Source of the DNA: Diplonema papillatum
Taxonomy: Eukaryota; Euglenozoa; Diplonemea; Diplonemida; Diplonemidae
NCBI GenBank assembly: GCA_030068145.1
Contig: JAPJBO010000006.1
Location: 620,001 to 684,000, forward strand
Reading direction: 5' to 3'
DNA: 64,000 nucleotides
Shown: positions 2,057 through 60,993 of the stretch, piece after piece
Position numbering within the stretch: the stretch's first letter is position 1
How the letters are laid out: every line of letters starts with the position of its first letter
Position numbers and translations under genes: made by a program
Notes under the pieces: model-generated
The model's input: the letters and a program-made list of their open reading frames with translations, nothing else
What the model was told of the DNA's origin: nothing
The model's database searches: none

Positions 2057-2067
2057 ACTTCACAGTG

Positions 2068-3341
2068 CATCAACTGTCTCAGTAAAACTGTGTGTCGACG
2101 GGACACCCTCCTTCTGCATCAACTTTCTCAGTAAAACTGTGTGTCGACGGGACACCCTCCTTCTGCATCAACTTTCTCAGTAAAACTGTGTGTCGACGGG
2201 ACACCCTCCTTCTGCATCAACTTTCTCAGTAAAACTGTGTGTCGACGGGACACCCTCCTTCTGCATCAACTTTCTCAGTAAAACTGTGTGTCGACGGGAC
2301 ACCCTCCTTCTGCATCAACTTTCTCAGTAAAACTGTGTGTCGACGGGACACCCTCCTTCTGCATCAACTTTCTCAGTAAAACTGTGTGTCGACGGGACAC
2401 CCTCCTTCTGCATCAACTTTCTCAGTAAAACTGTGTGTCGACGGGACACCCTCCTTCTGCATCAACTTTCTCAGTAAAACTGTGTGTCGACGGGACACCC
2501 TCCTTCTGCATCAACTTTCTCAGTAAAACTGTGTGTCGACGGGACACCCTCCTTCTGCATCAACTTTCTCAGTAAAACTGTGTGTCGACGGGACACCCTC
2601 CTTCTGCATCAACTTTCTCAGTAAAACTGTGTGTCGACGGGACACCCTCCTTCTGCATCAACTTTCTCAGTAAAACTGTGTGTCGACGGGACACCCTCCT
2701 TCTGCATCAACTTTCTCAGTAAAACTGTGTGTCGACGGGACACCCTCCTTCTGCATCAACTTTCTCAGTAAAACTGTGTGTCGACGGGACACCCTCCTTC
2801 TGCATCAACTTTCTCAGTAAAACTGTGTGTCGACGGGACACCCTCCTTCTGCATCAACTTTCTCAGTAAAACTGTGTGTCGACGGGACACCCTCCTTCTG
2901 CATCAACTTTCTCAGTAAAACTGTGTGTCGACGGGACACCCTCCTTCTGCATCAACTTTCTCAGTAAAACTGTGTGTCGACGGGACACCCTCCTTCTGCA
3001 TCAACTTTCTCAGTAAAACTGTGTGTCGACGGGACACCCTCCTTCTGCATCAACTTTCTCAGTAAAACTGTGTGTCGACGGGACACCCTCCTTCTGCATC
3101 AACTTTCTCAGTAAAACTGTGTGTCGACGGGACACCCTCCTTCTGCATCAACTTTCTCAGTAAAACTGTGTGTCGACGGGACACCCTCCTTCTGCATCAA
3201 CTTTCTCAGTAAAACTGTGTGTCGACGGGACACCCTCCTTCTGCATCAACTTTCTCAGTAAAACTGTGTGTCGACGGGACACCCTCCTTCTGCATCAACT
3301 TTCTCAGTAAAACTGTGTGTCGACGGGACACCCTCCTTCTT
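2068..3341. repeat. 49-bp minisatellite, 26 copies
   Basis: The unit begins CATCAACTTTCTCAGTAAAA and ends CCCTCCTTCTG. It repeats every 49 bp from 2068 to 3341, which is exactly 26 units. Only the first unit is visibly different (AACTGTCTC), so the array is nearly homogeneous and probably young. Because 49 is not a multiple of 3, frames running in from the right reach the same peptide in different phases. I regard those as spurious. Confidence 0.97.
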
Positions 3342-3824: not shown

Positions 3825-5613
3825 CTGCTGTAGAATCCTTGCTGGTCCCAAATAATCTGCTTCCTTCCGGGCGGACTTGGTACCTTGGTACTGTGGCCGG
3901 GCGAAACTCGCAGTGCGGCGGATCGCAAGTCATGAAGGGAGAAAGGAAGGAGAGAACGAAGAACAGTAGCACCACCGCCAAAATCATATCCACCGAGTGC
4001 AAGCACGGGTTCATTCTCTATCATCCGGGGTTTCCCCCGATACAACGTCAAAGGCAAAGAGGAGGAGTCAAGGGAGAGCCGCTGGAACTAGCTAACGGAA
4101 AGGTGCTTTTCTGGAAGCCCATCGACGTGAGCCGCACCCCCTTTTTTGCATTGCATGGTGTCACAGTCTAGCCTTGGACACGCTATGCAATCTCTGGTAT
4201 CCGGATTCCTGGTTCGTCGGATCTGGTATCCGGGCACCAGGCCGAGATATCCACCGGCATAAAGAAGTGCCAGGCATTGCAAGATGGCGCGAACGGTGTC
4301 CACGACGTGTCACCCGAAGCAATCCCCCTTACAGGTTGTTAGGGGCAGGTTGGGGAAGACAACCGCGCTCTAGCATTTGCACTTGCATCAATTCACGGTA
4401 TTAGGCTCGACAGTGATGGGGCTGTTTCTAGTCGTGCTCGATATGAGTGAAACGACTGGATGGCTTGCGGTTCGGCGCCATGGCTGAACCGGATGATGAC
4501 ACCCAGGGTACGACTTAGTTTCGGTTCAGAGGTATGGGTGTCCCGCCAGAGATGAGAGAGAGAGAGAGACTAGCATTGAGAATCGTTGGCGACGGAATCC
4601 TGAGACGGCATCGTTTACAGCAGTGGACTACGACGGTATCTGATCATCTTGGATCCCCACGCTCTCGTTCTTGATTAATGAAGACATTCTTGTCGAATGC
4701 TTTCGCAGAAGTTCGTCTTCCTACGATCTAAGAAGATTTCACCTCTGACGTAGGAGTACGTACGACCCCGGCAGCTGAAGTAGGGGAAGATCGGTAGTGT
4801 GCCAATGAAAAAGCAACCGTTTTTAAGACCGTTCTTCTCCGTGGGCTTGCTCCAAATCCGAGATGGCATACCCCCTATGCGCTATCAATGGTCCAAGGCA
4901 ACCGGGAAGACACGACGGAGAAACGCAAAAAAAGGCAATCAGGGATAGCTACGTGCCACGGCACGTGCGTTTCCGTCGGGTGTGTGTGCGTTGATGAATT
5001 CAACGCCAGAACGAAGAAGAAGCATGAAAACGGGGTTTTGCCTAGAGGCTTTTCGTGTTATTTTGCAAATGCTTTGTGCTATCTTTGTGTCTGTGCGAAG
5101 CGCGAAACGCGAAACGTTCAGCCCAGCCCGCCAACGCAATTGCGAGGCAGGCAGTCAAAAGAAGGAGACGGGCGCGGCCGCCGAACCGGTGGCAAACAGC
5201 CCCCTGGGACAGCATGATGGGCTCCCCGGAGGGGCTCACGTACCTTCATGGCTGCCCCGTCTCGCAAGTGCAGGGCGAGGAAATCGGTAAGACTTCGATA
5301 GACGGGGACCCATCGGGCCCAAGCAGCCCTTCACGCAACGCGGAAATGGAGCTCCCGTTGCTAAGATTGCTGGCTATGGTTGTTCCCAAGCGGTTGCACA
5401 GTGCCGTGATTATTACCCCTGCAGGCGTGGCTTGGTACTCGATCGGCTCTCAATCGGTTCCGGAAGCGTGCTCTACGGTAGCGGGTGATGAACTCAGATT
5501 TAGCTGTACTTCGCTTCGGCACAATGGCAAGAAGAAGGGCGTGGATTAAGATACGCGTGAACGAGGTTCAGCGGCTTCAAGGCTTCTGACGCGGAACGCA
5601 CGGCATCTACGAC
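3825..5613. other. No recognised gene; GA microsatellite
   Basis: About 1.8 kb without a convincing gene. It contains a short (GA)n run near 4553-4569 and a dispersed-repeat copy near 5021-5094. The longest frames (under 170 codons) lack recognisable features. Confidence 0.5.
5021..5094 (+). repeat. Dispersed repeat C, copy 1
   Basis: The block reading AAAACGGGGTTTTGCCTAGA, then GGCTTTTCGTGTTATT and a TTTGTGTCT tail, recurs at about 7698-7775 and 52964-53037. Fuller copies begin with GATGCTAGCATCAAGTCTTC (52472 and 52936, with a diverged piece near 27953). Three copies lie just intronic of exon acceptors in this window. Confidence 0.75.
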
Positions 5614-5826
5614 ATCATGCAGGGTCAAAACCTTGTGTCTTTTTAAAACGCTCCCGCGGGGCCGATGGCCCCCAAAAAAAAATTTGGAAAAAAAAAATTG
5701 CTCAACTTCCTCAAAAATTACTGCAGAGTTTGTTCCAAAATTTAAAATTCAAAAACCCCATTTTTTTTCCCGGAAATTTTTTTTTGGCCATTTCCAAAAA
5801 GACACAAGGTTTTGACCCTGCATGAT
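5614..5826. mobile_element. MITE with perfect 31-bp terminal inverted repeats
   Basis: The left end starts ATCATGCAGGGTCAAAACCT. Its reverse complement closes the element at 5826, giving 31-bp arms at 5614-5644 and 5796-5826. The 213-bp element is A/T-rich inside and too short to code. The termini contain CAGGGTCAAAACC. The TSD cannot be fixed because the ends are themselves partly palindromic (ATCATGC / GCATGAT). Confidence 0.8.
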
Positions 5827-5879
5827 ATGCCACACCAGCGCGTGATACTTGAGGGTCTGGCCCAGAACCACCCAAGCGC

Positions 5880-6125
5880 AATCATTTGCAGGCCATCAGG
5901 TACGACAACTGGTCTACAATGTCTACCAGGTCCGCCGCCGGAATGCCGCTAATAACCACACCTAAGGCTCGACTCAGGTTCTGCCGCTATCGCGAGTGAG
6001 AGCTCGATGGCGCGAAAGGGGCAGTGCAATTGGGATACAGGTTCAGGTCCACGTGGATCGGGTTCAGGACAGGAACAGACTAAGGCGCCACTACCTTCAT
6101 CGGATGGTACTCGATCGGAGCTGTC
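5880..6125 (-). pseudogene. Degenerate copy of the cyclophilin last exon
   Basis: The minus strand keeps a piece like the end of the functional exon (APIEY preserved) near 6100-6120. Plus-strand ACAACTGGTCTAC near 5905 corresponds to ACAGCTGGTCTAT in the real exon at about 6900. Intervening sequence is scrambled and frame is lost. It lies downstream of the gene's stop codon. Confidence 0.55.
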
Positions 6126-13448: not shown

Positions 13449-13814
13449 TTATTTTTTAGAGTTATAGTTCGCTTGAGAATCCGGGATTTTAGAGTCTCCG
13501 GGTGACTTTCGTCGAATGGGTTCTTTTAAAGCTAATACGGGTGGGTTTGTGGGGGCATGCATGGCTTCTTTCGTGTACACCTTACTTGGTCGCTTTGGCG
13601 AGTCAGGTTCGAAACAATTTGTGACCGACACCAAGTTCTCGCCAGGTTAGGTGAGTGTTCTTGGGCTCCCCACGTCTTACAAGTTGAGCAGGAGTTGCCC
13701 TGTAAACCGTATCGGTCCATTGTTCGCACCATGGCTCTAAGTAGAGTAGAGTGTAGAATAGCTCAGAGAGGTTTGCTGGTAGCAGCGAACGTTGCGCTTT
13801 TCGAAGTGCGGCGT
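13449..13814 (-). repeat. Fragment nearly identical to the 5' end of the hAT-like gene
   Basis: About 365 bp are nearly identical to 41238-41590, with only a few differences seen by eye. On the minus strand it includes the coding start of the hAT-like ORF (peptide LALKEPIRRKSPGDSK) and about 240 bp upstream of it. The right end abuts the 3' end of the reverse transcriptase element. The left end stops at A/T-rich sequence next to a MITE. Confidence 0.85.
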
Positions 13815-13922
13815 CGTTGCTCTCGGTAGTAAAAAAATTTTTTTTAGGAAAATACGTAGTTGAACTGTTCGTTGCTCGCCACAGTTAGGGCACTCTGGGC
13901 ACACTGGGTACCCGTGGTGTAT

Positions 13923-16586
13923 CTAGTTTTCGTCCGTCGGTTTCTTTGAGGTAGCGCGTCGCTTTGCTTTGTGTTTCTTTTTGCACCAGGGCTCATGGTG
14001 GCGTAGACTTGTGAAAAGTGGTTTCCCCACTGTTCGGCCGTCACTGTTGCAATATGGGCATCTGTCTCGTTTCTTCGCGGGACCCTGTAGTGTGTATTCT
14101 AGTTGAACCGTTGGTGGTCTTTCTTTGCAGAACCGTTGGTGCACGCGCAATCCCTGTTTTCCTTTAAAAAGGTGTCCGGCTGCCGTTGTACGTGCATGGC
14201 AGTAGGGGCATTGCAAGTCGTCGTCGCTGCTTGATTCTGGTTCCGTGGTAGGGGTGGTGCTTTGCGGGGAACTTAGAATTGTAGGTGTGGTGGCGCTGTT
14301 GTCGTCGGTAGTGTGCTCGTCGTACTGCGTTCCAGTTTGAGAGGCGGATAATTCGTCTCCTCGAATGGCGTCTAAGAGGTCCTGGGTTAAAACCGCGTCT
14401 GCAGACATGGTTGTCGGCGAGGTGGGTGTGGTTTTGTGGTCGTTGAAGGGTAAGAAGACTGGTGGGGGGACCTCCATTACTTGGACGTCTTGAGGCTGGT
14501 AGACGCAGAGGAAAGTCTCGTTGCTGGAGTATGTCGGGGCAGGTGTGTGGTGCGTCCGAACACCGTCGAAACATGACCATCGTTGGCTTGCGTCTGCAGA
14601 CTCGTTGAGGGCGTGGATGACGTAGTGGCCTGCGTTGTTGTGGCCGGAGTGTACGGCTATTGCTCTTAGATTGAGGGGGGCGTTACGTCCTGGGAGTGTG
14701 ATGGTGTGGTCTGCGTGTATGGCGGTGCGGTTTGTTGTGTCGTTTTTGCGTGCCCTTTGCAGTTGGATAAGCAGCATTGTGTTGATGTGTTGGAAGTTAG
14801 GTCTTGTCAAAGTGGTGTTGGTGTGTTTGCAAGCTTCACATTTGTAGTCGACGGCTAAACGGGGTGTGCTCCAGAGGTTCAGACATCTCTGTATCGAATT
14901 GCCGCCTGGTGGAAGGTACGTAATGTCTTGGGTTTCCGGTATGTTGGACTTGGAGTGGCTGCATTTTTTGCAGGTTGTGGTAGTTGTGATGTTGTGCTGG
15001 AGGCCGACGAAAGTGTCATGACGATTCTGTTGACAAGCTTGGTGCGCTGCGTTTTCGTTCAGTAGGGCTGTAGTGATTGCACGAAGGACTTCCCCGAGAT
15101 CACACTGCTGCCCGTCCCCGAAGGGTCCGTCGATGCTGGCGAAAACATGCAGGAGTGTCGCTTGCGTCCGTCTTCCTGTGACCCAACCGCTTACGGCTGC
15201 CGTACAATCGCCCTTCGAGTGCGATGTACATTCGTTGTATGTAACCACTTGTTGGGCCATGTCGGTGGCGGCGATTAGGTTCAGCGCGGCTTGGAGGAAG
15301 CAGGAGTTTGTTGTAGTGAACCGTGCGAGCTTTGAGAGTGTTTTGGCTCCGGCCGCCGCGACTGCTGCTGCGAGGGTGATGCTTGCTACGAGGTTGGCTA
15401 CTCTTTGTTTGAGGGTGAAGAGCGTTGGTGTTGGTTGCTGCCGGTCTTCGACTGGACTATCATCGAGTTCGTGAGTCGTAGTGGTGCTGCTATCAGAGGA
15501 AGAAGCGAGGTCGTCCGGTGTGACGGGAAGTTCGGCTGGTCTGAAGTTGAGGGGTTGGTGTTTTCCGGCAAATTCGGCTTCTGCGATGCGCGGTTTGCCG
15601 GCTTTGAATCGCGCGATACTGTAGCCGAGGAATGGTTTCAGCTGGTTGTGGAGTCGTGGTAAGCTTCGAAATTCCTCGGTTAGCCAGGCTTGCCATGGGG
15701 GGTAGAGGACTCTCGGATGGTGACCTCGTTCGAGCATCGCGTAGACGTTTCGCTGTATCTCTACGCGTAGGTCCTGCCAATGGTTGGTTTGCCGCATCGC
15801 TCTTATCAGCGAGCCTTTGAAGATGCCGCTTGCTTGAGTCTTGGGGGCTGTGGTCTGGTGGTGCGTGAAGCGTGTACCGTATGTTTTAGGATGAACATTG
15901 AGTCGTATGTGTGCTGGGTGTGGTGCTTCTGGTCGTTCGATTCGGATTCGTATGCCTAAAAAAACGGTGTCGTCTCGCGCCGTTGTGGTTTCTTTGTACT
16001 CCATACGGTATAAGGCTTGAGGTGGGGGTTTACAGTCCCATTGTAAGAAGTCGTCGATGAAACGCCAGGTGTTCACGAACGCTTTGGCTTCGTCGTGTTT
16101 GCCCTGTGCTAGAAGGCCGTCGATGTATTCGGACTCTACGCTGTAGCAGTAAAGGTTTGCTAAGTCCGAACTTGCGTTACCTCCCATCGGTATGCCTCCT
16201 GTCTGTCTGAAAATCGTATCGCCTTGCTCGATGTAGGCGTTGTCGATGACGAAATTCAGCAGGGCTTTGACTTCTTCTCTTGTGTAGTTCCGGTTGGTGT
16301 TGTTAGCTCCTTTGCCGAAATTGAAGGTCTTTTTACCCTGTTGTTTTGAGCCCCTGGTGAGGTGGTTGTGACCATGCTTCTCTTCATGGTCATACGCTTC
16401 GTCAACGGTCAAACCCACTCTTCGTTTGACCTCGTCGTGCGGCAACTTCGTGTACATCGTTAAGAAGTCGTGGTTCGATGGTGTTTTGTGCCTCAGTTGC
16501 GTTTGTTGTTGTTTGATGTTGAGTGCTATGTCGTCGGGGCTTTCAGTGAAGAGGGCTTTTTTGATGCCTGTTGTCTTTTTGGACAA
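13923..16586 (-). CDS. Reverse transcriptase-ubiquitin-specific protease fusion with two C-terminal zinc fingers
   Basis: An 887-codon open frame, counted from its first codon (TTG; a stop lies just upstream). Residues ~35-330 are the back half of a reverse transcriptase: motif A DFLTMYTKLPH (40-50), motif B GGIPMGGNASSDLANL (130-145), motif C RFIDDF (Asp178/Asp179). Motif style resembles Penelope-like/TERT-related RTs. Residues ~420-700 form a peptidase C19 (USP) domain: Cys box NSCFLQAAL (Cys429), QQ box GQQCDLGEV (492-500), a CxxC...CxxC zinc ribbon (539/542, 583/586), His box GHY (His654) and an FDG third-site candidate (Asp674). A Ser/Thr-rich linker leads to two CxxC...HxxxC/HxxxxC fingers (793-820, 843-868). 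The RT N-terminal fingers are missing, so the copy is probably 5'-truncated. No GIY-YIG or other endonuclease motif was found. Confidence 0.8.
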   Translation of the reverse strand: MSKKTTGIKKALFTESPDDIALNIKQQQTQLRHKTPSNHDFLTMYTKLPHDEVKRRVGLTVDEAYDHEEKHGHNHLTRGSKQQGKKTFNFGKGANNTNRNYTREEVKALLNFVIDNAYIEQGDTIFRQTGGIPMGGNASSDLANLYCYSVESEYIDGLLAQGKHDEAKAFVNTWRFIDDFLQWDCKPPPQALYRMEYKETTTARDDTVFLGIRIRIERPEAPHPAHIRLNVHPKTYGTRFTHHQTTAPKTQASGIFKGSLIRAMRQTNHWQDLRVEIQRNVYAMLERGHHPRVLYPPWQAWLTEEFRSLPRLHNQLKPFLGYSIARFKAGKPRIAEAEFAGKHQPLNFRPAELPVTPDDLASSSDSSTTTTHELDDSPVEDRQQPTPTLFTLKQRVANLVASITLAAAVAAAGAKTLSKLARFTTTNSCFLQAALNLIAATDMAQQVVTYNECTSHSKGDCTAAVSGWVTGRRTQATLLHVFASIDGPFGDGQQCDLGEVLRAITTALLNENAAHQACQQNRHDTFVGLQHNITTTTTCKKCSHSKSNIPETQDITYLPPGGNSIQRCLNLWSTPRLAVDYKCEACKHTNTTLTRPNFQHINTMLLIQLQRARKNDTTNRTAIHADHTITLPGRNAPLNLRAIAVHSGHNNAGHYVIHALNESADASQRWSCFDGVRTHHTPAPTYSSNETFLCVYQPQDVQVMEVPPPVFLPFNDHKTTPTSPTTMSADAVLTQDLLDAIRGDELSASQTGTQYDEHTTDDNSATTPTILSSPQSTTPTTEPESSSDDDLQCPYCHARTTAAGHLFKGKQGLRVHQRFCKERPPTVQLEYTLQGPAKKRDRCPYCNSDGRTVGKPLFTSLRHHEPWCKKKHKAKRRATSKKPTDEN

Positions 16587-16599
16587 AGTTCCTTATCCG

Positions 16600-17090
16600 G
16601 AGCCGAAGTTTTGGAATAAACCTTTGTATGGGCTCACTAGTTTCTAAAAGGGCCTTTGTCTGGACAGCAGAGTTTTGCAAAATACCCTTGTATGGACACA
16701 AGGTTTGCAAAATACCCTTGTATGGACAGAAGATTCTGAATAAATACCCTTGTATGACACACACATTCTCAAAAGGGACCTTGTATGGACAGACTTTTTT
16801 GGTCCCTTGTATGGACGGCAGATGTTCAGAAATACCCTTGTATGGAGAACCTACCCTTATATGGACGCCGTACTTTCGAAAAGTCCCTTGTATGGACGAC
16901 ATACTTTTGAAAGGTCCCTTGTATGGACATCTGACTTTTGAAAAGTTCCTTGTATGGACACCTGACTTTTGAAAAGTCCCTTGTATGGACGACGTATTTT
17001 CGAATACCCTGGTGCATAATTGTGTCTGGAAGCCTGCTCTCCATTGCAAACTTGTGTGGACGACGTACTCGAATACCCCTGTGCACTGTT
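16600..17090. repeat. Degenerate ~34-bp minisatellite (CCCTTGTATGGAC)
   Basis: About 13 imperfect units, each containing CCCTTGTATGGAC followed by roughly 20 variable A/T-rich bases. It lies directly upstream of the truncated RT reading frame on the minus strand. Minus-strand frames through it give repeats like CPYKG and SIQGTF; these are probably not real protein. The array could be the 5' region of the element or part of its insertion site. Confidence 0.85.
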
Positions 17091-19737: not shown

Positions 19738-19802
19738 TGCAGATCACTGATTTTCTCTCGTAGGTAGGTGCAAACCCCAGGTTCCTTATGAAATTGCAAC
19801 CA

Positions 19803-20697
19803 AACACTTGTTATAACAAGCAATCACTTGTTATATAACAAGCAATCACTTGTTATATAACAAGCAATCACTTGTTATATAACAAGTGATCACTTGTTAT
19901 ATAACAAGCAATCACTTGTTATATAACAAGCAATCACTTGTTATATAACAAGCAATCACTTGTTATATAACAAGCAATCACTTGTTATATAACAAGCAAT
20001 CACTTGTTATATAACAAGCAATCACTTGTTATATAACAAGTGATCACTTGTTATATAACAAGTGGCACTTGTTATATAACAAGTGATTGCTTGTTATATA
20101 ACAAGTGGCACTTGTTATATAACAAGTGATCACTTGTTATATAACAAGTGGCACTTGTTATATAACAAGCAATCACTTGTTATATAACAAGCAATCACTT
20201 GTTATATAACAAGCAATCACTTGTTATATAACAAGTGATCACTTGTTATATAACAAGTGGCACTTGTTATATAACAAGTGATTGCTTGTTATATAACAAG
20301 TGGCACTTGTTATATAACAAGCAATCACTTGTTATATAACAAGCAATCACTTGTTATATAACAAGCAATCACTTGTTATATAACAAGTGATCACTTGTTA
20401 TATAACAAGTGGCACTTGTTATATAACAAGTGATTGCTTGTTATATAACAAGCAATCACTTGTTATATAACAAGTGGCACTTGTTATATAACAAGTGATT
20501 GCTTGTTATATAACAAGCAATCACTTGTTATATAACAAGTGATCACTTGTTATATAACAAGTGGCACTTGTTATATAACAAGTGATTGCTTGTTATATAA
20601 CAAGCAATCACTTGTTATATAACAAGCAATCACTTGTTATATAACAAGTGGCACTTGTTATACATTTTCACTTGTTAGGTCACTTGTTATATAACAA
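19803..20697. repeat. Palindromic satellite, right array (~40 units)
   Basis: About 895 bp of ACTTGTTATATAACAAG units (mostly 22-23 bp apart), with spacers that alternate between GCAATC, TGATC, TGGC and TGATTGC. The spacer order forms higher-order repeats. Every unit can form a hairpin. Confidence 0.95.
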
Positions 20698-25125: not shown

Positions 25126-28100
25126 TCACGCATCCCTGGAGTACGAGTAGGTCCTCGCCCCGTCGAAGCCGAGCTGGGCCAGGTTCGAGCACGTGATCTT
25201 CTCGAAGATCGGCGGGCCGCAAAGCACGGTCAACGTTCCCTCCTCCTCAGGGCCCCAGAGGTTAGTCCGCAGCGCTTCCATGTCGATGAATCCGACGCCT
25301 TCGGTCCAACCTACAGGAGGGTGGTTCAATACGACGTACCGCTTGATGAAGTCCGGGTACCGGTTCTTGACCCGCTCGGTCGACTCTGCAAAGGCGAGGT
25401 CCGCCGAAGACTCGGCGGCGTACAGAATGCGGATGCCGTACTCATTCGGGTCGTGGTTCGCGACGGTCTTCACGAAGGAACGGACAATTTGGATCATCGG
25501 CGCGATCCCCGTGCCGCCGGCGATCAAGTTCAGCTTTTTGACCTCCTCCCCGTGCCAGGTGTACGCGTTGCCCGACGGCGACAACGCCAGCTCCAACCCG
25601 CCCATGGCTTTGATGTAGACGCCCGCGCCGGGCCGCAGCGCGTTGAGCAGCTTCACGATTGGCCCGCCCTTGTCGTCGCCCCGCGACAGCACGTCGATGC
25701 AGCCCCAGTCGTACGGCCGGGTGATCGGCGAGAAATACCCGCACAGCACGTCGCCGTCGAGCGACGCCTTCAGCGCAACGTACTGCCCGACCTTCAGCCC
25801 GGTCGACTGCAGGGCACCGTGGAGATTGAACCGGTAGCACCTGGTGGACGCACCATACTTTTCCCCCGTCTCCTTCTCCTCCCGGAAGGTGACCGGCTGC
25901 CACTTGTCCAAGCTGAGGCACGAATCGGTCTTCTGCTTGATGGTCCCGGCACGCTCCCCCACCGTGCGGCCGAGCACGACGCACTCCAGCAAGCTGTTCC
26001 CGCCCAGTCGGTTCGCCCCGTGCAGCCCGCCGGTGCACTCGCCGGCCGCGAACAGCCGCTTCACCGGGCTGTGCTTCCCGTACGCGCCCTCCAGCGACTT
26101 CTGCACCTCTCCCGACGGGGAGATCGCGAGCCCGCCCATGCAGTAGTGGATGGCCGGCGTCACCATCGCAACGAGCCAGTCCTCGTCGTCGACCGACATG
26201 TTGCACGGGAACGCTTTTTTTTCGGTCGCAGTGCAGAACCCCCGCTTCAAAGCCTTGTTGTAGGCCAGGACGGTGTTCTTCAACTCGTCGAAAGGGCAGC
26301 CGATGTGGTCGGCGACGTCCTTGAGCGTCTTCGCTGCTTGGAACAGCCCGACCTTCTCGTGGTAGAACTTGAGCAGGGGGCGGCCGAAGGCTTCCTGCAT
26401 GCACTTGTTGAGCAGGCAGTAGGCGAACGGGCGCGTGATGGTTTCGGAGCCGGTGCAGTTCTGCAGGATGGCTTCCGAGACGTGCGACCGCAGGCCGAGC
26501 TCGTCGACGAAGCGGTGCCCCTTCTGGTTGACCAGGACGCCGCCGCTGCCCCGCAGAGCTTCCGGGCCCAGGTACTTCGTCGACGCCGCGGGATCCTTCG
26601 GGTCGACGAACCCTGTCGGGTGGAGCTGCACGTGCTCCATGTCAACGACATCCGCGCCGAATGCGCGTCCCAACCGAATCCCGCTACCGTCGGTCCACGA
26701 CCCGTTCGTGGTCGGCACCCCCTTCAGGTCTGGGCGAACCTCGAACAGCAGACTGTCTTCCCCTTTGCCGAATCCAAATCCGCCGGTGCAGAGGATGGTG
26801 GCGTCGGCCTTGAGCTGGTGGAGGTTGCCGGCTGCGTCCTTGTACTCGACGCCGGCGGCGCTGGACGAATCTTCCGGGTCGGGAATGATCGCCGTCACTT
26901 CGACATTGGGGCGGACCTCGATTTTGCCCTGGTAGTTCCTCTCGATGTAGTCGCGCATGGTCTTCATGATGACGAACCCGATCGGCGTCGGCGACCCATC
27001 CGCCTGCGGCGGCGCCCTATGCGCCCTGGGCTTCGCCGCCCCGCCCAGCTGCGTCACGACCGTCAACGGAACGCCTATCGTGTGCGTCAGCCACTCGACC
27101 GCGCAGCGGCTCCGCGAGGACAGCAGGCGCACGAGGCCCGGGCGCGTTGTGCCGCCGAGTCCGGAGCGGAAGGTGTCGCGCTCGAAGTACCGCTCGTCGT
27201 CGACGATGCCCAGCGCGGCCTGCGCGTTGGTCCCCCACCCGTTGATGCCGGACGTCGCCTTCGCCGAGTTCCCGCCCGTTTTCGACTCTTTTTCGAGCAG
27301 AATCACCTTCGCGTGCACGTTCGCGGCTTCGATGGCTGCAGAGAGCCCGGCGAGGCCTCCGCCGACAACGACGACAGTCCCCGGCTCATGCCTCGTCAGC
27401 CGTTCCGCCTTCGCGTCTCTGTTCTCCTCCGCAGGCCACGGCTTCTGAATGAGCACAGGTCCGTCTTCCGAGTACAAGAGGTAGTCCACGACGCGGTGGG
27501 CCTTGTGGCTGGCCGAGCAAAGCCCGTCCAGCATCTTCTTCGCGTCGTCGACGCTGCCGCTCGCGACGCCGGCCGTCGCGAACGCATCGGCGAGCATGCA
27601 GGAGACGCTGGCGACGCTGGCGAGGTGCGTCCCCCGCTTGCGCGCTTCGTCGGTCACCGGAATGACCGTCTTCGTCTTCGCGTCGACGATGTGGCTGAGC
27701 CCGCTCTTCTCCAGCTCGAGGTACACGCCTGAGGTGGCGAAGCCTTGCTTCGAGGTAAGGTCCACCAGCGCAAACGGCTTCGCGTCCTTCGCCCCGGTCG
27801 TGACGGATGCTGCCCACGAACGGCCTGGGGTGGGTGGTTTTGTATGGGGTGTGATTTGCTTCCTGAGCCCTTGAGCTACCGACGCCGGGGGAAAGTTTTT
27901 TTAGTTTAATGGTTAGGCACGACGACACTGCCTCTCGTGCATGTTTCGATGCTAGCATCAAGCCTTGTTCGAAGAAAAGTGTAAAACAGAAAAGGGAAAA
28001 AGGAAAAAGGGGGGGTGCTCTCCGGACTCGTGCTAAATTTACACGTTTTTTGAAGTTTGCTGGCGTCAAAAAAAAGAAACGCTCACATGGTGGACAACCT

Positions 28101-34751: not shown

Positions 34752-36992
34752 CCTAGTGGTCCACTAGTGGTCCATTAGTGGTCCATTAGTGGTCCACTAG
34801 TGGTCCATTAGTGATCCATTAGTGTTCCATTAGTGGTCCATAAGGGATCCACTAGTGTTCCATTAGTGGTCCATTTAGTTGCCCATTAGAGGCCTATTAG
34901 GATTCCTGTAGTGTTCCATTTAGTGTACCATTAGTGGTCCATTAGTGGTCCATTAGTGGTCCACTAGTGGCCCATTAGTGGTCCATTAGTGGTTCATTAG
35001 GGTTCCTGTAGTGTTCCATTAGCGTTCCATTAGCGTTCCATTAGTGGTCCATTAGTGGTCCATTAGTGGTCCATTAGTGGTCCATTAGTGGTCCATTAGT
35101 GGTCCATTAGTGGTCCATTAGTGGTCCATTAGTGGTCCATTAGTGGTCCATTAGTGGTCCATTAGTGGTCCATTAGTGGTCCATTAGTGGTCCATTAGTG
35201 GTCCATTAGTGGTCCATTAGTGGTCCATTAGTGGTCCATTAGTGGTCCATTAGTGGTCCATTAGTGGTCCATTAGTGGTCCATTAGTGGTCCATTAGTGG
35301 TCCATTAGTGGTCCATTAGTGGTCCATTAGTGGTCCATTAGTGGTCCATTAGTGGTCCATTAGTGGTCCATTAGTGGTCCATTAGTGGTCCATTAGTGGT
35401 CCATTAGTGGTCCATTAGTGGTCCATTAGTGGTCCATTAGTGGTCCATTAGTGGTCCATTAGTGGTCCATTAGTGGTCCATTAGTGGTCCATTAGTGGTC
35501 CATTAGTGGTCCATTAGTGGTCCATTAGTGGTCCATTAGTGGTCCATTAGTGGTCCATTAGTGGTCCATTAGTGGTCCATTAGTGGTCCATTAGTGGTCC
35601 ATTAGTGGTCCATTAGTGGTCCATTAGTGGTCCATTAGTGGTCCATTAGTGGTCCATTAGTGGTCCATTAGTGGTCCATTAGTGGTCCATTAGTGGTCCA
35701 TTAGTGGTCCATTAGTGGTCCATTAGTGGTCCATTAGTGGTCCATTAGTGGTCCATTAGTGGTCCATTAGTGGTCCATTAGTGGTCCATTAGTGGTCCAT
35801 TAGTGGTCCATTAGTGGTCCATTAGTGGTCCATTAGTGGTCCATTAGTGGTCCATTAGTGGTCCATTAGTGGTCCATTAGTGGTCCATTAGTGGTCCATT
35901 AGTGGTCCATTAGTGGTCCATTAGTGGTCCATTAGTGGTCCATTAGTGGTCCATTAGTGGTCCATTAGTGGTCCATTAGTGGTCCATTAGTGGTCCATTA
36001 GTGGTCCATTAGTGGTCCATTAGTGGTCCATTAGTGGTCCATTAGTGGTCCATTAGTGGTCCATTAGTGGTCCATTAGTGGTCCATTAGTGGTCCATTAG
36101 TGGTCCATTAGTGGTCCATTAGTGGTCCATTAGTGGTCCATTAGTGGTCCATTAGTGGTCCATTAGTGGTCCATTAGTGGTCCATTAGTGGTCCATTAGT
36201 GGTCCATTAGTGGTCCATTAGTGGTCCATTAGTGGTCCATTAGTGGTCCATTAGTGGTCCATTAGTGGTCCATTAGTGGTCCATTAGTGGTCCATTAGTG
36301 GTCCATTAGTGGTCCATTAGTGGTCCATTAGTGGTCCATTAGTGGTCCATTAGTGGTCCATTAGTGGTCCATTAGTGGTCCATTAGTGGTCCATTAGTGG
36401 TCCATTAGTGGTCCATTAGTGGTCCATTAGTGGTCCATTAGTGGTCCATTAGTGGTCCATTAGTGGTCCATTAGTGGTCCATTAGTGGTCCATTAGTGGT
36501 CCATTAGTGGTCCATTAGTGGTCCATTAGTGGTCCATTAGTGGTCCATTAGTGGTCCATTAGTGGTCCATTAGTGGTCCATTAGTGGTCCATTAGTGGTC
36601 CATTAGTGGTCCATTAGTGGTCCATTAGTGGTCCATTAGTGGTCCATTAGTGGTCCATTAGTGGTCCATTAGTGGTCCATTAGTGGTCCATTAGTGGTCC
36701 ATTAGTGGTCCATTAGTGGTCCATTAGTGGTCCATTAGTGGTCCATTAGTGGTCCATTAGTGGTCCATTAGTGGTCCATTAGTGGTCCATTAGTGGTCCA
36801 TTAGTGGTCCATTAGTGGTCCATTAGTGGTCCATTAGTGGTCCATTAGTGGTCCATTAGTGGTCCATTAGTGGTCCATTAGTGGTCCATTAGTGGTCCAT
36901 TAGTGGTCCATTAGTGGTCCATTAGTGGTCCATTAGTGGTCCATTAGTGGTCCATTAGTGGTCCATTAGTGGTCCATTAGTGGTCCATTAGT
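34752..36992. repeat. 11-bp satellite (CCATTAGTGGT), about 200 copies
   Basis: The first ~300 bp is variable (CTAGTGG, GTTCCATTAG, GATCC variants). From about 35037 the array is essentially perfect GGTCCATTAGT repeats. It is interrupted at 36993 by a transposon and resumes at 41965-42056. Confidence 0.98.
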
Positions 36993-39478: not shown

Positions 39479-41347
39479 TCATATGTGTCCCAAACAGTTG
39501 ACAACAACTCTCTCCTTTTCCCCGACCGAGGCACAATAGCGTGCATACTCCCCATGAATTTTGGATGCATCGGACGCACCTGGGGGGTTTGCCACCCAAT
39601 TTAAAAGCTTGCGAAGGTGGCTTGCAGCAATGTTCATTTCAGCAAGTTGAGAATAACTTTTATCGGCTGTTTCGTTGCACCCCATTGCAGCAGCCAACTT
39701 TCTGATGGAAAGGGGAAAGTATTTCCTCTGAAGTTCTTCTCTGACAAATTTGGCGAGGACTTCCCGCCTCTGGAAGACGTGCTCGCAAACGTCCAGGATG
39801 CTCGACCACCGGGTCTCTCCAAGTGTTCTAGCGGCAGCTGGGCTTGGTGACTCGACGTCAACATCGATGACGTCTTCGTTGGCTCTGATATATTCCTTCG
39901 CCTTTTCGAGGCGAATGGAGTCTTCGACTTCTGGAAAAGCTTTTTTCAACGAGTTTGCTGCCAGAACGTATCCCTGCTCAATCATTTCCAGGCATTTCTT
40001 TATCTTCGTCACTTGGTCCTTGTTTTCCTGGTGCCGCGCCCGTTCGCTACTTTGGTACTTGCTCTGAAAGTCTTTCCACCTCCGCCGACGAGCATTCTTC
40101 GACCCACCAAGCGCCTGCGAAAAGAGGGTACAAAACTCGACTGCGTCGGGGAACAGAGTCGTAAAGTACTCGCGCAGGGCCTTGTTCAAGTGGTGCCCAA
40201 GGCACCACACAACAGGCGCGTTCTTCATGCCCTTTGCCAGCTTTTGGTTCACAGCGCACCTGTCCAAGTTTACAAAAGAGACTTCGAAGCTGAATTCTTT
40301 TGTGATCCGTGCAATGAGCTGTTCTACGTCTTCTGCCGCGTATGCGCTTCCATCGTCAAGGGAGTCGATCCCAAGGAGCACCACATCTTTCTCGAGGAAA
40401 GCAGTTATGCCCATGTATTGCAGGTTCAACGACGGGCTTGTTGTGCTGTCAAGTGCAATTCCGAGCAACTGCCTTTCAACAACGAATTTAATCCGTTCTT
40501 CGGCCTCTGTGACATGCTTCGGCATGCGGGCCAGAAGACTCTGGGCTGAGCTGAATTTCGGGAACAGGTGCTTCCGCACAGGCAGCATCATCATTTCCGT
40601 CTGTCCTCGAGTCAGGCCAGCTGCGCAAGCGACAAATGAGACATCATCCTCAAAAGCCTCTTTGTTTGGTACCGAGAGACAGGCCTGCTTCAAGGCAGCG
40701 CTTTCAGCTGGCATGGGCTTTGTTGGTTGTTTGGCGAGCGCCTCGAGGCGCCTAAGGTGTGACTTGCAAACACTGTGGTTCTTCGCCGTTGACTGCTCCC
40801 GGTGGTCGATGATCTGGTTGCATGGATTGCACCACAAGACAGTGTCGGTCTCTTTACGGCCTTCCTTCAGCTTTGCCTGGCGCACGTCGAAGTCGAGACT
40901 CTTCACTGTCTTCACCACCAGGCCTTTTTTCTGGGTGTCCGAAAGACCCTGAAGTCGAGTTGCAGGAGAAACGTAGTACGGTCGATTCTTCTTCTTGCTG
41001 CTCTCTTGTGCTTTGTCAAGGTTCTCCTTTAACTTCTTCGGCTTCGGCAGAGGTTGTGCTTTGCCAAGGTTCTTCTTTAACTTCTTCGACTTCGGCAGAG
41101 GGGGGCTGCTGTCGCTCGTGCTGTCTTCGCTTTCGACTAGCTGTTTCCTCTTTTGGCTCTTGGCTGCTGGCTTAGAGGTTGTGCGTGTACTCTCCTGCGA
41201 CTGACTCAGAGCGAGTTTTTTAACTGCACTGGGTGGGTTTTCAGAGTTATAGTTCGCTTGAGAATCCGGGATTTTAGAGTCTCCGGGTGACTTTCGTCGA
41301 ATGGGTTCTTTTAAAGCTAATACGGGTGGGTTTGGGGGGGCATGCAT
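39479..41347 (-). CDS. hAT-superfamily-like transposase, C-terminally short
   Basis: 622 residues from the first ATG (the frame stays open 24 codons upstream). Residues ~60-120 are Lys/Ser-rich, like a nuclear localisation region. A BED-type finger is seen at Cys173-x2-Cys176-x14-His191-x5-His197. Asp300 in ALDSTTSPSLNLQYMG and Asp362 in NLDRCAVNQKL fit the first two catalytic acids. CLGHHLNKAL (382-391) is the hAT CxxH helix, and ETRWSS (511-516) the RW motif. The usual C-terminal dimerisation block is missing; another frame just past the stop (to 39370) reads STVWDTYDSKDVFRRQYS, suggesting a frameshift. Activity is doubtful. Confidence 0.7.
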   Translation of the reverse strand: MHAPPNPPVLALKEPIRRKSPGDSKIPDSQANYNSENPPSAVKKLALSQSQESTRTTSKPAAKSQKRKQLVESEDSTSDSSPPLPKSKKLKKNLGKAQPLPKPKKLKENLDKAQESSKKKNRPYYVSPATRLQGLSDTQKKGLVVKTVKSLDFDVRQAKLKEGRKETDTVLWCNPCNQIIDHREQSTAKNHSVCKSHLRRLEALAKQPTKPMPAESAALKQACLSVPNKEAFEDDVSFVACAAGLTRGQTEMMMLPVRKHLFPKFSSAQSLLARMPKHVTEAEERIKFVVERQLLGIALDSTTSPSLNLQYMGITAFLEKDVVLLGIDSLDDGSAYAAEDVEQLIARITKEFSFEVSFVNLDRCAVNQKLAKGMKNAPVVWCLGHHLNKALREYFTTLFPDAVEFCTLFSQALGGSKNARRRRWKDFQSKYQSSERARHQENKDQVTKIKKCLEMIEQGYVLAANSLKKAFPEVEDSIRLEKAKEYIRANEDVIDVDVESPSPAAARTLGETRWSSILDVCEHVFQRREVLAKFVREELQRKYFPLSIRKLAAAMGCNETADKSYSQLAEMNIAASHLRKLLNWVANPPGASDASKIHGEYARYCASVGEKERVVVNCLGHI

Positions 41348-41590
41348 GGCTTCTTTCGTGTACACCTTACTTGGTCGCTTTGGCGAGTCAGGTTCGAAAC
41401 AATTTGTGACCGACACCAAGTTCTCGCCAGGTTAGGTGAGTGTTCTTGGGCTCCCCACGTCTTACAAGTTGAGCAGGAGTTGCCCTGTAAACCGTATCGG
41501 TCCATTGTTCGCACCATGGCTCTAAGTTGAGTAGAGTGTGGAATAGCTCAGAGAGGTTTGCTGGTAGCAGCGAACGTTGCGCTTTTCGAA
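41238..41590 (-). repeat. Duplicate partner of the 13.4-13.8 kb fragment
   Basis: Nearly identical to 13449-13814. It covers the first codons of the hAT-like gene plus its upstream part, where another open minus-strand frame (ELFHTLLNLEPWCEQW) is conserved in both copies. Confidence 0.85.
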
Positions 41591-41964
41591 GTGCGGCGGC
41601 GTCGTCGCTTTTTGTTGCGCCCCATTTTGTTCCTGACCTTTTCGCGTAGTTCCAAACTGTTTTGAGTTTTATGAAGCCGGTATTTTTGAGTCTCTGGTTG
41701 GCCATTGGGAGTTCTCTTCGATTCTGCCATGAGTTGGGTTCAACGATAATGCTGTTACTTCGCAGAGCTGCTCTGATTGTTTCTCTAACTGCAGTCGTAC
41801 AATAATGATTTGTATATTATTGTATATTCTTGTAAATTATTGTATATTATTGTATATTATTGTATATTCTTGTATTATTGTACAGTATTGTATACAATAA
41901 TATACGAAAATTTGTACAATAAAAATACAATAAAATACAATAAACGATTCGTATCACAACCGTG

Positions 41965-49690: not shown

Positions 49691-50236
49691 TGTTTGGGTT
49701 TTTGAAACAGCCCCAAAACCGACCTTTTGTCCATCTGCACGCCAGATTTTGGTCGCCACGCGAGCTGATTGCTTGCCCATAATCGCCAGGGATAGCTCTT
49801 TTCATCCCAAAAAAAATTTCCCAAAAATTCCAAAATTTTGACCCAAAACGGGCTGCTTTTCAGACGGAAAATCTGTGACACTTTTTCGTGGAATGGGTGA
49901 TATGTAGTAGCGGATATTCAATGAAGAACATTAGACCGAAAAAAAAAAGAATTGGCGCGATGATTGTTTGTACGTGCCGGGGGAAGTTCGCCTTCGGGCG
50001 AATCTCCTGCCGTTGTCAGCGTTCTTTTTCGAGTTTACATTCGGCAGGTGTTCGTACACACTCATTATCGTCTATGGCCACCGTCCTGGTGTCTGACACC
50101 TTAAGTCAGCTCTCGGTTCATCCTGCGTCGCCAGTCCTGCTCCCACCACCAGAAGTGGCCCACTTAGAACCAGGATTCTACGTCAGGGTTCAATGAAGTA
50201 ATCCCGAGCCCACGCCCATTCAGATTTTGAGAATAG

Positions 50237-50344
50237 GTCGAGGAAACGATTTCCCCAAAATGCCTTCAATCATTCGCTTTACCTGGCGTAACTCCTGTTT
50301 TGGTTCTAGCTATCCTGAGGGAAACTTCGGAGCAAACCAGCTAG

Positions 50345-50934: not shown

Positions 50935-51055
50935 TTAGTATGGCGCTTCCGTTTGTTTGTGCGCACTAGCGGCTTTTCACCTGATTTGGTGAGTTGCTTT
51001 TAGTACGCTGCCAACTACTAATTTTTAGTACCAACAATGCATTGTTAACACAAAA
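50935..51055 (+). repeat. Dispersed repeat E, copy 2
   Basis: Diverged copy of 24590-24700, just intronic of the 51,289 donor (about 230 bp downstream on the coding strand). Confidence 0.6.
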
Positions 51056-51288
51056 TACTCGAGGGACTGCCTTGTGCTCATTTCGAAGGAGGCTAGAGGG
51101 GGAGAAAACAATACAACTACAAAGTGGGTCTTTTTTGTTGAACGCTTACGCCCGCCACTAAACCCAGATTTACCTGTGTTTCGTGTGGGCTACAGCACAT
51201 TTACCTCCTTCGATCTATCGCAACTGGCAGTCTCCTCAAGCATTTCCTACAAAGCAGGTGCTTATACAAAAAGAAAAAAAAGGGATAC

Positions 51289-54834: not shown

Positions 54835-56030
54835 GATCGGAAAAAATAAATTCGTATATTTGTCCGGCCTGTGTAAACACAACGGAATCCTGTCAAAAAA
54901 TAAACGAAATTTATCGTCACGCTCCTCAAGCCATTTCCACCAGAGGGAATTTATTTTTCCCAATAAAACACCGGGTTATTATTCGATTTGTCGAATAATA
55001 AAAAAAGTGCCGGGTAGCCGAACAGTAGCAGGATCAAATAGTGGTGGTGTTTTTAGACAACCAGACGTGTATTATTCGAACCCCTCCTTTAAGGTTCGAG
55101 GGGAAAAAACCTATCCCCCCTATGTGCGGCGGGAAAAAAAAAAGCCTCACTACTAGACTTGGCGACACCTGGCTGCCCTTGGCGACTTGTGGGCCTAGAC
55201 TCCCCTGCATGTGGACCAACCTGTGGCAAGCACATGTGGGGGAAGAAATAAACCAAAATCCACATGTGGTACCTGTGGATCCACGGCTCTCGTCCCCGGC
55301 GATGGAGGTTTTGTCGTCGAACGGCTGTTGTCAGACACACCAAGCGTGTGGATTGCCACGGATGCCACCGTCAGCTGCTTACCGCCACCGGATCTTCCCT
55401 CGCAATCAGCTTGGCCCCTACCGACACACTCACTATTTACGGTGACACCCGCGTTCATCACTGTTGAAGACAAACAACAGAACAATTTGCTGCAAACACG
55501 GCAGCAGGTACGCAAATTGCCCAACAGCAACACTTGCTGTTGGGCAGCGAAGAGAAATACCCTCGACGCGTACTTAGTACGTTAGAAGCTATGGATGGCA
55601 TTTAAACATGTCGATGAACGCAATTGGTGGACAGGTCTGGTGTCAGCACCCGCGGTAAATCCAGCACCAATGGCGTATAGTGATGTTGCTGCTGTTAAAA
55701 AGCTCGTAGTTAGATCCAGAGCTCGGGTTGCAAGGTGGCACAGTTTGCTGGGTATCAGCGTAGGGATTACGCACGCGCGCAGATGGCGACGCGTGTAAAC
55801 ATGTACAACAAGATATGCTCTCAGGTGGAGACATCGACCTCACCAACACTCGATTACGACGACAGGAATCGATCCTGGCGACGGAGGTTTTGTCGAACGC
55901 ACCGGCTGGCGTCAGACACACCAAGCGTGTGAATTGCCACGGATGCCACCGCCACTGAATTCTACCCGCCGTGTACCGCGTGCCGCGCAGCTGCATGCCG
56001 TCACCAAGTTCTCCCCAAAAAACTTTAACA
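54835..56030. other. Intron-like region with paired repeats, no confirmed gene
   Basis: 54835-54975 repeats 53875-54006. A ~90-bp segment (about 55300-55375, CAGACACACCAAGCGTGTGG) recurs at 55880-55955. The plus-strand frame at 55211-55585 has some protein-like character (LLSDTPSVWIATDATVSCL), but neither start nor splice sites support it. Confidence 0.45.
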
Positions 56031-59811: not shown

Positions 59812-60993
59812 GATCGTTGGAAGGAGTCCTACGGAAGGGCGACCCAACGTTAGCGGATTGGCGCGCGATCGAGTTTTGATAGATTCCGCAACCTTCCAGT
59901 CGCGCGGAGTTCAACTCGATGGAAGGAGTCCTACGGAAGGGCAACCCAACGTCAGCGGAGCTGACGGGTTGGCGCGCGATCGAGTTTTGATAGATTCCGC
60001 AACCTTCCAGTCGCGCGGAGTTCAACTCGATGGAAGGAGTCCTACGGAAGGGCAACCCAACGTCAGCGGAGCTGACGGGTTGGCGCGCGATCGAGTTTTG
60101 ATAGATTCCGCAACCTTCCAGTCGCGCGGAGTTCAACTCGATGGAAGGAGTCCTACGGAAGGGCAACCCAACGTCAGCGGAGCTGACGGGTTGGCGCGCG
60201 ATCGAGTTTTGATAGATTCCGCAACCTTCCAGTCGCGCGGAGTTCAACTCGATGGAAGGAGTCCTACGGAAGGGCAACCCAACGTCAGCGGAGCTGACGG
60301 GTTGGCGCGCGATCGAGTTTTGATAGATTCCGCAACCTTCCAGTCGCGCGGAGTTCAACTCGATGGAAGGAGTCCTACGGAAGGGCAACCCAACGTCAGC
60401 GGAGCTGACGGGTTGGCGCGCGATCGAGTTTTGATAGATTCCGCAACCTTCCAGTCGCGCGGAGTTCAACTCGATGGAAGGAGTCCTACGGAAGGGCAAC
60501 CCAACGTCAGCGGAGCTGACGGGTTGGCGCGCGATCGAGTTTTGATAGATTCCGCAACCTTCCAGTCGCGCGGAGTTCAACTCGATGGAAGGAGTCCTAC
60601 GGAAGGGCAACCCAACGTCAGCGGAGCTGACGGGTTGGCGCGCGATCGAGTTTTGATAGATTCCGCAACCTTCCAGTCGCGCGGAGTTCAACTCGATGGA
60701 AGGAGTCCTACGGAAGGGCAACCCAACGTCAGCGGAGCTGACGGGTTGGCGCGCGATCGAGTTTTGATAGATTCCGCAACCTTCCAGTCGCGCGGAGTTC
60801 AACTCGATGGAAGGAGTCCTACGGAAGGGCAACCCAACGTCAGCGGAGCTGACGGGTTGGCGCGCGATCGAGTTTTGATAGATTCCGCAACCTTCCAGTC
60901 GCGCGGAGTTCAACTCGATGGAAGGAGTCCTACGGAAGGGCAACCCAACGTCAGCGGAGCTGACGGGTTGGCGCGCGATCGAGTTTTGATAGA
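59812..60993. repeat. 111-bp minisatellite, 10 near-perfect copies, open on both strands
   Basis: Units of 111 bp (37 codons) contain GATGGAAGGAGTCCTACGGA and GCGCGCGATCGAGTTTTGAT. The first unit lacks about 10 bp and has a few changes; the other ten are virtually identical. Plus-strand peptide repeat: GLARDRVLIDSATFQSRGVQ + LDGRSPTEGQPNVSGAD. Minus-strand repeat: 37 residues starting LPFRRTPSIELNSARLEGCG. Either or neither may be translated. Flanking sequence to about 61080 has a diverged half unit (CAACTTTCCGGTCGCGGGGA). Confidence 0.95.

Follow-up and report, generated by a model that had tools for sequence, protein, structure and literature searches.

Identification of a retroelement encoding an RT and a C19 protease

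In a 64,000-nucleotide stretch of the Diplonema papillatum genome (contig JAPJBO010000006.1, positions 620,001 to 684,000, referred to below as the window), we identified a truncated copy of a retroelement in which a reverse transcriptase (RT) and a C19 ubiquitin-specific protease (USP) are encoded by the same reading frame. The element is probably a permuted Penelope-like element (PLE) with an N-terminal endonuclease plus a new domain, the USP. This domain is under purifying selection in three lineages of such elements (A, B, and C), the window copy belonging to lineage A.

According to the original prediction, made from the window alone, a single frame of 887 codons contains RT motifs A, B, and C, the landmarks of a C19 peptidase, and two zinc fingers. 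Across positions 13923 to 16586 the plus strand contains many stops and the minus strand is open. The open frame includes the sequences DFLTMYT, GIPMGG, and RFIDDF, located by eye, which we take to be motifs A, B, and C, respectively. These are followed, at the predicted places, by Cys429, a GQQ box, a CxxC...CxxC motif, His654, and Asp674, all of which are invariant in 11 lineage A rows (down to 35% identity), and then by the two CxxC...H...C fingers. The profile search proposed for the protease half returned a match between Pfam UCH (PF00443) and residues 425 to 675 of the window protein (E = 2.3e-10, 40.9 bits for a cut-off of 23.9), so that C19 homology, rather than its absence, was found. 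In the corresponding Pfam search for the RT half, the window protein was not listed for RVT_1 at E values up to 1.

Searching the host assembly (271 Mb) with the window protein, the best 51 of 1707 candidates being scored, gave at least 52 matched rows (identity of at least 48%), many of them inside far longer frames. Forty-three of the 52 rows start ahead of RT motif B (residue ≤131) and reach residue ≥673, and 40 of these 43 contain no internal stop as printed; row C669 starts downstream of motif C and is therefore outside the 43. Thus, the two halves are not joined only at this locus, and their chance joining is excluded.

Longer lineage A copies have single frames encoding polypeptides of 2663 (L009), 2762 (L010), and 2602 (L011) residues comprising, in this order, Pro-rich repeats, a GIY-YIG endonuclease, a CxC motif, the RT, a linker, the C19 USP, and two zinc fingers. 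In these three copies the N-terminus exceeds 1100 residues and consists mostly of Pro-rich repeats; much of the N-terminal half of the L009 frame is made of repeats of ~70 residues (WYVPTTYTPSKASFFSTEHQRSPHPN...) that vary between subfamilies. GIY-YIG (PF01541) was detected in L009 and L010 with E values of 0.026 and 0.011 for the whole protein and of 0.0037 and 0.0007 for the part alone, and above the Pfam cut-off in a further lineage A family (L056, E = 1.7e-5), in L030 of lineage B, and in L053 to L055 of lineage C. The domain is N-terminal to the RT in all of these and in L031 of lineage B. The CxC motif between endonuclease and RT is CAC in lineage A and CPC in lineages B and C. As seen in the alignment, a long stretch separates RT motifs A and B. 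The original prediction had described the RT, USP, and fingers correctly and missed the N-terminal GIY-YIG domain, the CxC motif, and the pseudo-long terminal repeats (pseudo-LTRs) described below.

Ends of the element and status of the window copy

The 3' flanks of eight lineage A copies are alike through ...AACTATAACTCT plus a few A residues and then diverge; the 3' end of L006 differs from this sequence by two letters. In copy C167, the last 1141 nucleotides are repeated upstream of the gene (99.6% identity), and 394 nucleotides of the 3' end are likewise repeated upstream in copy C233, both arrangements corresponding to pseudo-LTRs. Copies C77 and C526 are 5' truncated, and lineage C includes a head-to-tail array with a period of 5726. 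No direct repeat of the 3' end was found upstream of L030, L031, L053, and L054, where the flanks are short. Pseudo-LTRs and truncations are among the features described for PLEs in PMC3846280. Of 8 copies, 4 have tandem repeats no farther than 300 bp from their 3' end, versus 52 of 188 random window pieces (L007 being anchored on a second, later 3'-end-like sequence), and an insertion preference for tandem repeats is not shown by this comparison. No ribozyme was found among 12 Rfam matches (E up to 1) in four lineage A stretches, the search not covering lineages B and C; most of the microRNA matches in these stretches coincide with a palindromic repeat of the flanking DNA. Window positions 51052 to 51278 match the 3' flank of the C167 element copy at 97% identity and correspond to a dispersed repeat adjoining that copy.

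Comparison by blastn of the window copy with seven stretches containing other copies revealed 99.6 to 99.84% identity for six of them (L002 to L007) and 95.2% for the last (L008). Together with the start of homology at position 16572, the near-identity to six stretches indicates that the window copy is a recent 5'-truncated insertion. Its frame, which represents the 3' portion of a longer gene, lacks the endonuclease and the earliest RT motifs, and as judged from its sequence the copy is inactive on its own. The 887-codon frame is thus open, as predicted, without being the complete open reading frame (ORF) of the element, since its first ~5 codons, upstream of the start of homology, are flanking DNA. 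The argument that this open frame itself reveals selection did not hold, because the copy is recent and truncated; selection was shown instead by comparison of subfamilies (see below).

Further lineages and relatives outside the genome

When the genome was searched with PF00443, 149 matches were obtained, many of which form equal-score groups, and lineage B (L030 and L031) was found among them. Its frames of 1562 and 1585 residues contain GIY-YIG, CxC, RT, a canonical USP, and one finger; the USP motifs of L030 are NLGNTCFLNAVLQ...RQHDAHEAL...SGHFVTYV...WTLFDD. L050, initially considered as a host USP, was rejected as such, its own sequence assigning it to lineage B. With the L030 RT as the query (best 83 of 644 candidates scored), at least 84 matches were obtained. 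Twenty-seven of these have an identical 516-residue RT stretch, indicating recent amplification, and 13 of the 27 have the same 1562-residue frame.

Relatives were also sought outside this genome. None was found in the viral contigs scanned. The scan of contigs from prokaryote genomes yielded four (L034, L035, L036, and L037) out of 54 pattern-matching stretches, with E values for homology of 9e-36 to 5e-22 relative to the scan candidates only. We infer that these contigs are eukaryotic DNA mis-binned into metagenome-assembled genomes. Three of them, L034, L035, and L037, which we take to be Naiad-like, encode an endonuclease, a CxC motif, and an RT, with no USP within the contig. The fourth, L036, is a contig of 3.8 kb (29% GC) that starts inside a frame of 879 residues in which an RT is followed by a USP, indicating that the fusion is not confined to the genome of the window. 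RVT_1 was detected in three of the four relatives at E values of 1e-4 to 3.4e-4 (1e-4 for L036), L034 not being one of them. L037 also contains two very similar ORFs, LINE ORF1-like by eye (positions 214 to 867 and 5487 to 6050, plus strand), which flank the Naiad-like endonuclease-RT ORF as though the element possessed a second ORF within a partial tandem.

Using L036 to search the D. papillatum genome (best 52 of 632 candidates scored) revealed further families; three copies fetched from these (L053 to L055) form lineage C, which displays an endonuclease, CxC, RT, and USP and no finger. PLEs devoid of a USP were searched for in the same genome with a Naiad-like RT (best 82 of 469 candidates scored): the best matches were 26 rows of the L056 family, followed by the families of L053 to L055, and all four representatives have a USP. 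The USP of lineages B and C was read directly in the fetched copies, not in each match.

Conservation of and selection on the USP domain

UCH was detected with E values of 1.1e-9 and 2e-11 in full-length lineage A copies and of 7.7e-14 in L056. Lineage B gave 5.8e-23 and 1.5e-20, the values for lineage C were 3.8e-18 to 9e-16, and that for L036 was 5.6e-27. A family profile searched against the PDB matched ubiquitin carboxyl-terminal hydrolases 36 (E = 1.2e-8) and 8 (E = 4.5e-8) among 86 sequences with E values up to 1. The catalytic Cys and His and the four zinc-ligand Cys residues are kept in all 13 element USPs that were compared. At the third catalytic place, 11 of these have Asp, and L036 and L056 have Asn; host USPs have Asn or Ser there in 8 of 13 cases. 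At the aligned QQ-box position, Gln is present in 10 of the 13 element USPs and His in three lineage C rows. The catalytic Cys, His, and Asp and the four zinc-ligand Cys, seven key residues in total, all fall within the 24 of 276 columns that are invariant over four lineage A and two lineage B rows (p = 1.5e-8), and within the 69 of 276 that are invariant over the 11 lineage A rows, some of which are nearly alike (p = 4.8e-5). By these sequence criteria, the USP has most likely been kept as an enzyme.

Ratios of nonsynonymous to synonymous substitution (dN/dS) were obtained by Nei-Gojobori counts with bootstrap ranges and are rough, since several pairs have synonymous sites close to or at saturation and some gave no value. 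For the USP, dN/dS was 0.153 (0.095 to 0.219) between lineage A subfamilies L009 and L010, 0.146 (0.080 to 0.238) between lineage B subfamilies, and 0.094 (0.051 to 0.156) and 0.116 (0.062 to 0.196) between lineage C subfamilies. Closer pairs gave 0.297 (L009-L018) and 0.094 (L010-L014). Values for the RT, where computable, were 0.05 to 0.10, and the linker and tail, used as an inner control, gave 0.16 to 1.19. The fingers gave 0.02 to 0.22, apart from 1.2 in the pair L010-L014, which is of low divergence with very few changes. The copies and the dN/dS of subfamilies together bear out the predicted fusion of RT, C19 protease, and zinc fingers in a probable Penelope-type element and its maintenance by selection.

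Phylogeny of the USP and RT domains

Lineages A, B, and C each form a clade in both the USP and the RT trees. In a first USP tree, lineages A and B were weakly joined (support 79/87); in the tree to which lineage C was added, the latter stood beside the host USP L049 (96/95). Forcing A, B, and C into one USP clade was 6.3 log units worse and was not rejected by the approximately unbiased (AU) test (p-AU = 0.114), and forcing A, B, C, and L036 together was 8.0 log units worse (p-AU = 0.191). The best RT tree grouped L036 with L034, L035, and L037 (100/100). The alternative in which A, B, C, and L036 form a clade against these three contigs was not rejected either (p-AU = 0.149, or 0.231 without lineage C). 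With long branches and a small sample, the trees do not settle between one and several gains of the USP. The USP might be an old, integral part of a clade of permuted PLEs with the order endonuclease-RT-USP, gained once before lineages A, B, and C and the host of L036 split, in which case ubiquitin removal would be a regular step of retrotransposition; we hold this scenario to be possible and on the doubtful side.

Class of the element and comparison with known systems

The GIY-YIG endonuclease, the CxC motif, and the pseudo-LTRs are the features by which the element was classed as a probable PLE. The PLEs with an N-terminal endonuclease, Naiad and Chlamys, and their defining features were reportedly set out by Craig et al. 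in 2021. These elements have a GIY-YIG domain N-terminal to the RT, a CxC motif between the two, an RT of the PLE/telomerase branch, and an "insertion in fingers" domain in the RT. They also show pseudo-LTRs or partial tandems, 5' truncation, a preference for microsatellites, and no hammerhead ribozyme. The D. papillatum elements share with them the GIY-YIG domain before the RT, the intervening CxC motif, pseudo-LTRs, and, for lineage A, the lack of a ribozyme match in Rfam, and their RT is alignable with that of L034, L035, and L037, with shared motifs. Unlike Naiad and Chlamys, they have a USP after the RT, a giant Pro-rich N-terminus (lineage A), and C-terminal fingers (lineages A and B). 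A CxxC motif is present in the endonuclease of L034, L035, and L037 and absent from the lineage A, B, and C copies that were read. A search of the PDB with the RT returned only a group II maturase (E = 0.13), and PHROGs and NCBIfam gave weak matches only, among them a group II intron RT.

Proteases of the ubiquitin or SUMO pathway fused to a mobility enzyme are reported for the Ginger1, Helitron, and Mutator elements (PMC2836005), which differ in being DNA transposons and in carrying OTU and Ulp1, two other protease families; OTU is also mentioned for Helentrons (PMC6431247). A C19 domain is present in Trichomonas vaginalis XP_001314237.1, in which peptidase C19 is fused to transposase_11, a DNA transposase and not an RT, PMC2836005 naming this single protein. 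Among retroelements, the NeSL and Utopia non-LTR retrotransposons also combine a cysteine protease with zinc fingers, but the protease is Ulp1-like and N-terminal, the endonuclease is restriction-like, and the clade is that of non-LTR elements (PMC4640811). The giant Gypsy-like Burro elements of planarians carry extra ubiquitination-linked motifs (RING and MATH_TRAF_C); they are LTR retrotransposons, and their description in PMC6431247 includes no C19 domain. The same source describes Terminons, giant PLEs of rotifers, which are likewise large PLEs with accessory functions but are endonuclease deficient and telomeric, the accessory functions described there not including a deubiquitinase. In agreement with the original prediction, no description of a C19-RT or C19-Penelope fusion was found in the open-licence literature searched. 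The fusion of a C19 USP to the RT of a probable PLE would thus be new, fusions with Ulp1 or OTU and one C19-transposase case being already known.

Putative role of the deubiquitinase

The account that we somewhat favor is that of an autonomous PLE with an enzymatic deubiquitinase that would act in cis, either on the complex that the element itself forms or at its target. The GIY-YIG endonuclease would nick the target and the RT would copy the element RNA starting at the nick. Such target-primed copying, which is discussed for PLEs in PMC11167929, is suggested by the presence of both an endonuclease and an RT, and truncation and pseudo-LTRs fit it. To judge by the anatomy of the copies and by known PLEs, incomplete copying would generate truncated copies and pseudo-LTRs. 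The deubiquitinase fused to the RT could strip ubiquitin from the ribonucleoprotein of the element or, at the nick, from chromatin or repair factors, and would thereby protect the complex from destruction or ejection by host ubiquitin signaling. The sequences show the architecture, the families of copies, the conserved catalytic residues, and purifying selection, from which we infer an activity as deubiquitinase, its substrate, and a benefit to transposition. The fingers could bind nucleic acid and would not be essential to the design, because three lineage C copies and L036 lack them.

Several observations weigh against this account. USP scores are the lowest in lineage A, in which the Cys box is atypical (NSCFLQAAL, with no GLxNxGN lead), and the third catalytic residue is Asn in two of the element USPs. 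Pair by pair, the dN/dS of the USP exceeds that of the RT by a factor of ~1.6 to 4, indicating a weaker constraint. AlphaFold2 modeling of the USP plus fingers was poor (mean pLDDT of 41.5) and provided no support. The GIY-YIG matches in L009, L010, and L031 and all RVT_1 matches in the relatives are under the Pfam cut-offs, and the RT tree was built without reference PLE or telomerase sequences. The atypical Cys box, the Asn residues, and the weaker constraint would also be expected if the C19 domain were a ubiquitin-binding or structural module for which catalysis is dispensable. We regard this as quite improbable, since the catalytic Cys and His are kept in every element USP compared, Asn or Ser also occupies the third place in most of the host USPs, and purifying selection operates in three lineages.

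The USP could alternatively act in trans, on host proteins of the nicked target (histones, PCNA, or repair factors), and their deubiquitination would enable second-strand synthesis and ligation. The fingers and the endonuclease would place the USP on DNA, and Bao et al. (2010) propose that the OTU and Ulp1 domains of DNA transposons act on DNA repair in transposition (PMC2836005). However, lineage C copies and L036 keep the USP without fingers and nothing in the analysis points to a substrate, and we consider action in trans rather unlikely. Long conserved frames are also what a domesticated, nonmobile host gene derived from a PLE would display. This is very hard to reconcile with the number of scored places (at least 51 with the lineage A query, 83 with the lineage B query, and 52 with the query that found lineage C), with the common 3' end followed by different flanks in eight lineage A copies, and with 5' truncation, pseudo-LTRs, and near-identical copies. 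Finally, the window copy is incomplete at its 5' end and has repeats around it, as might be seen if an RT and a host USP gene had been joined at this locus by chance or by the assembly. This explanation, to which we give virtually no credit, is refuted by the occurrence of the same order in the lineage A rows, in the fetched lineage B and C copies, and in a contig of another source (L036).

An autonomous PLE with a cis-acting deubiquitinase would have implications beyond this genome, the results suggesting that certain retrotransposons are themselves equipped to counter the host protein-tagging (ubiquitin) system. Proteases of the ubiquitin pathway are encountered repeatedly in DNA transposons and in several non-LTR elements, with a role that is not established in the literature consulted. 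Here, the predicted deubiquitinase is covalently tied to an RT and an endonuclease, is selected in three lineages, and has a testable catalytic Cys, and near-identical, recently amplified copies exist in lineages A and B. The question of whether ubiquitin removal helps retrotransposition thus becomes directly testable. The results also extend PLEs to diplonemids, which are abundant ocean protists.

Features and genomic context of the window

Features of the lineage A copies in the window (positions are those of the window)
Feature	Positions	Strand	Basis
Lineage A retroelement copy, 5' truncated, 3115 nt	13458..16572	-	blastn against other copies; shared 3' end
887-codon open frame; first ~5 codons are flanking DNA	13923..16586	-	Homology to other copies starts at 16572
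RT, from just upstream of motif A to the thumb region	15525..16571	-	Alignment with full-length copies
C19 USP domain (Cys429, QQ box, CxxC...CxxC, His654, Asp674)	14460..15338	-	Pfam UCH; conserved residues
Zinc finger 1 (CxxC...H...C)	14127..14210	-	Cys/His invariant in 11/11 lineage A rows
Zinc finger 2 (CxxC...H...C)	13983..14060	-	Cys/His invariant in 11/11 lineage A rows
3' untranslated region including the common 3' end of the element	13458..13922	-	3' flank comparison of copies
Tandem repeats, units of ~30 bp, CCATACAAGGG..., adjoining the truncated 5' junction	16656..17004	Not assigned	
Another, very short copy of this element, reduced to 360 nt of the 3' end (98.9% identity)	41243..41602	-	

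A 650-residue open frame (39482 to 41431, minus strand) takes its first part from the 3' end of the short second copy. No Pfam match was obtained for this frame at E values up to 0.01, and a gene or transposase (hAT-like by eye) may have been extended by insertion of the short copy.

A 23-base segment from the spliced leader of Diplonema has 604 exact matches in the assembly (323 on one strand and 281 on the other), whereas the reversed control gave none. The window also contains a 924-residue frame (25129 to 27900, minus strand) with Pfam matches to FAD_binding_2 and an NAD-binding oxidoreductase and a weak match to ApbE, presumably resembling the NADH-dependent fumarate reductases of Euglenozoa. 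The genome paper reports a size of ~280 Mb and ~3600 28S pieces, and its main text contains neither "Penelope" nor "ubiquitin" (PMC10161547). Fragments of SSU and LSU rRNA genes are present in the window at positions 4596 to 5025 (minus strand), 55450 to 55675 (plus strand), and 50004 to 50332 (minus strand), scattered rRNA pieces being reported for this genome (PMC10161547). Long tandem arrays include ~203 copies of an 11-bp repeat (TAGTGGTCCAT) at positions 34754 to 36992, TTATATAACAAG-type arrays at 19797 to 20662, and others at 2066 to 3340 and 59854 to 60993.

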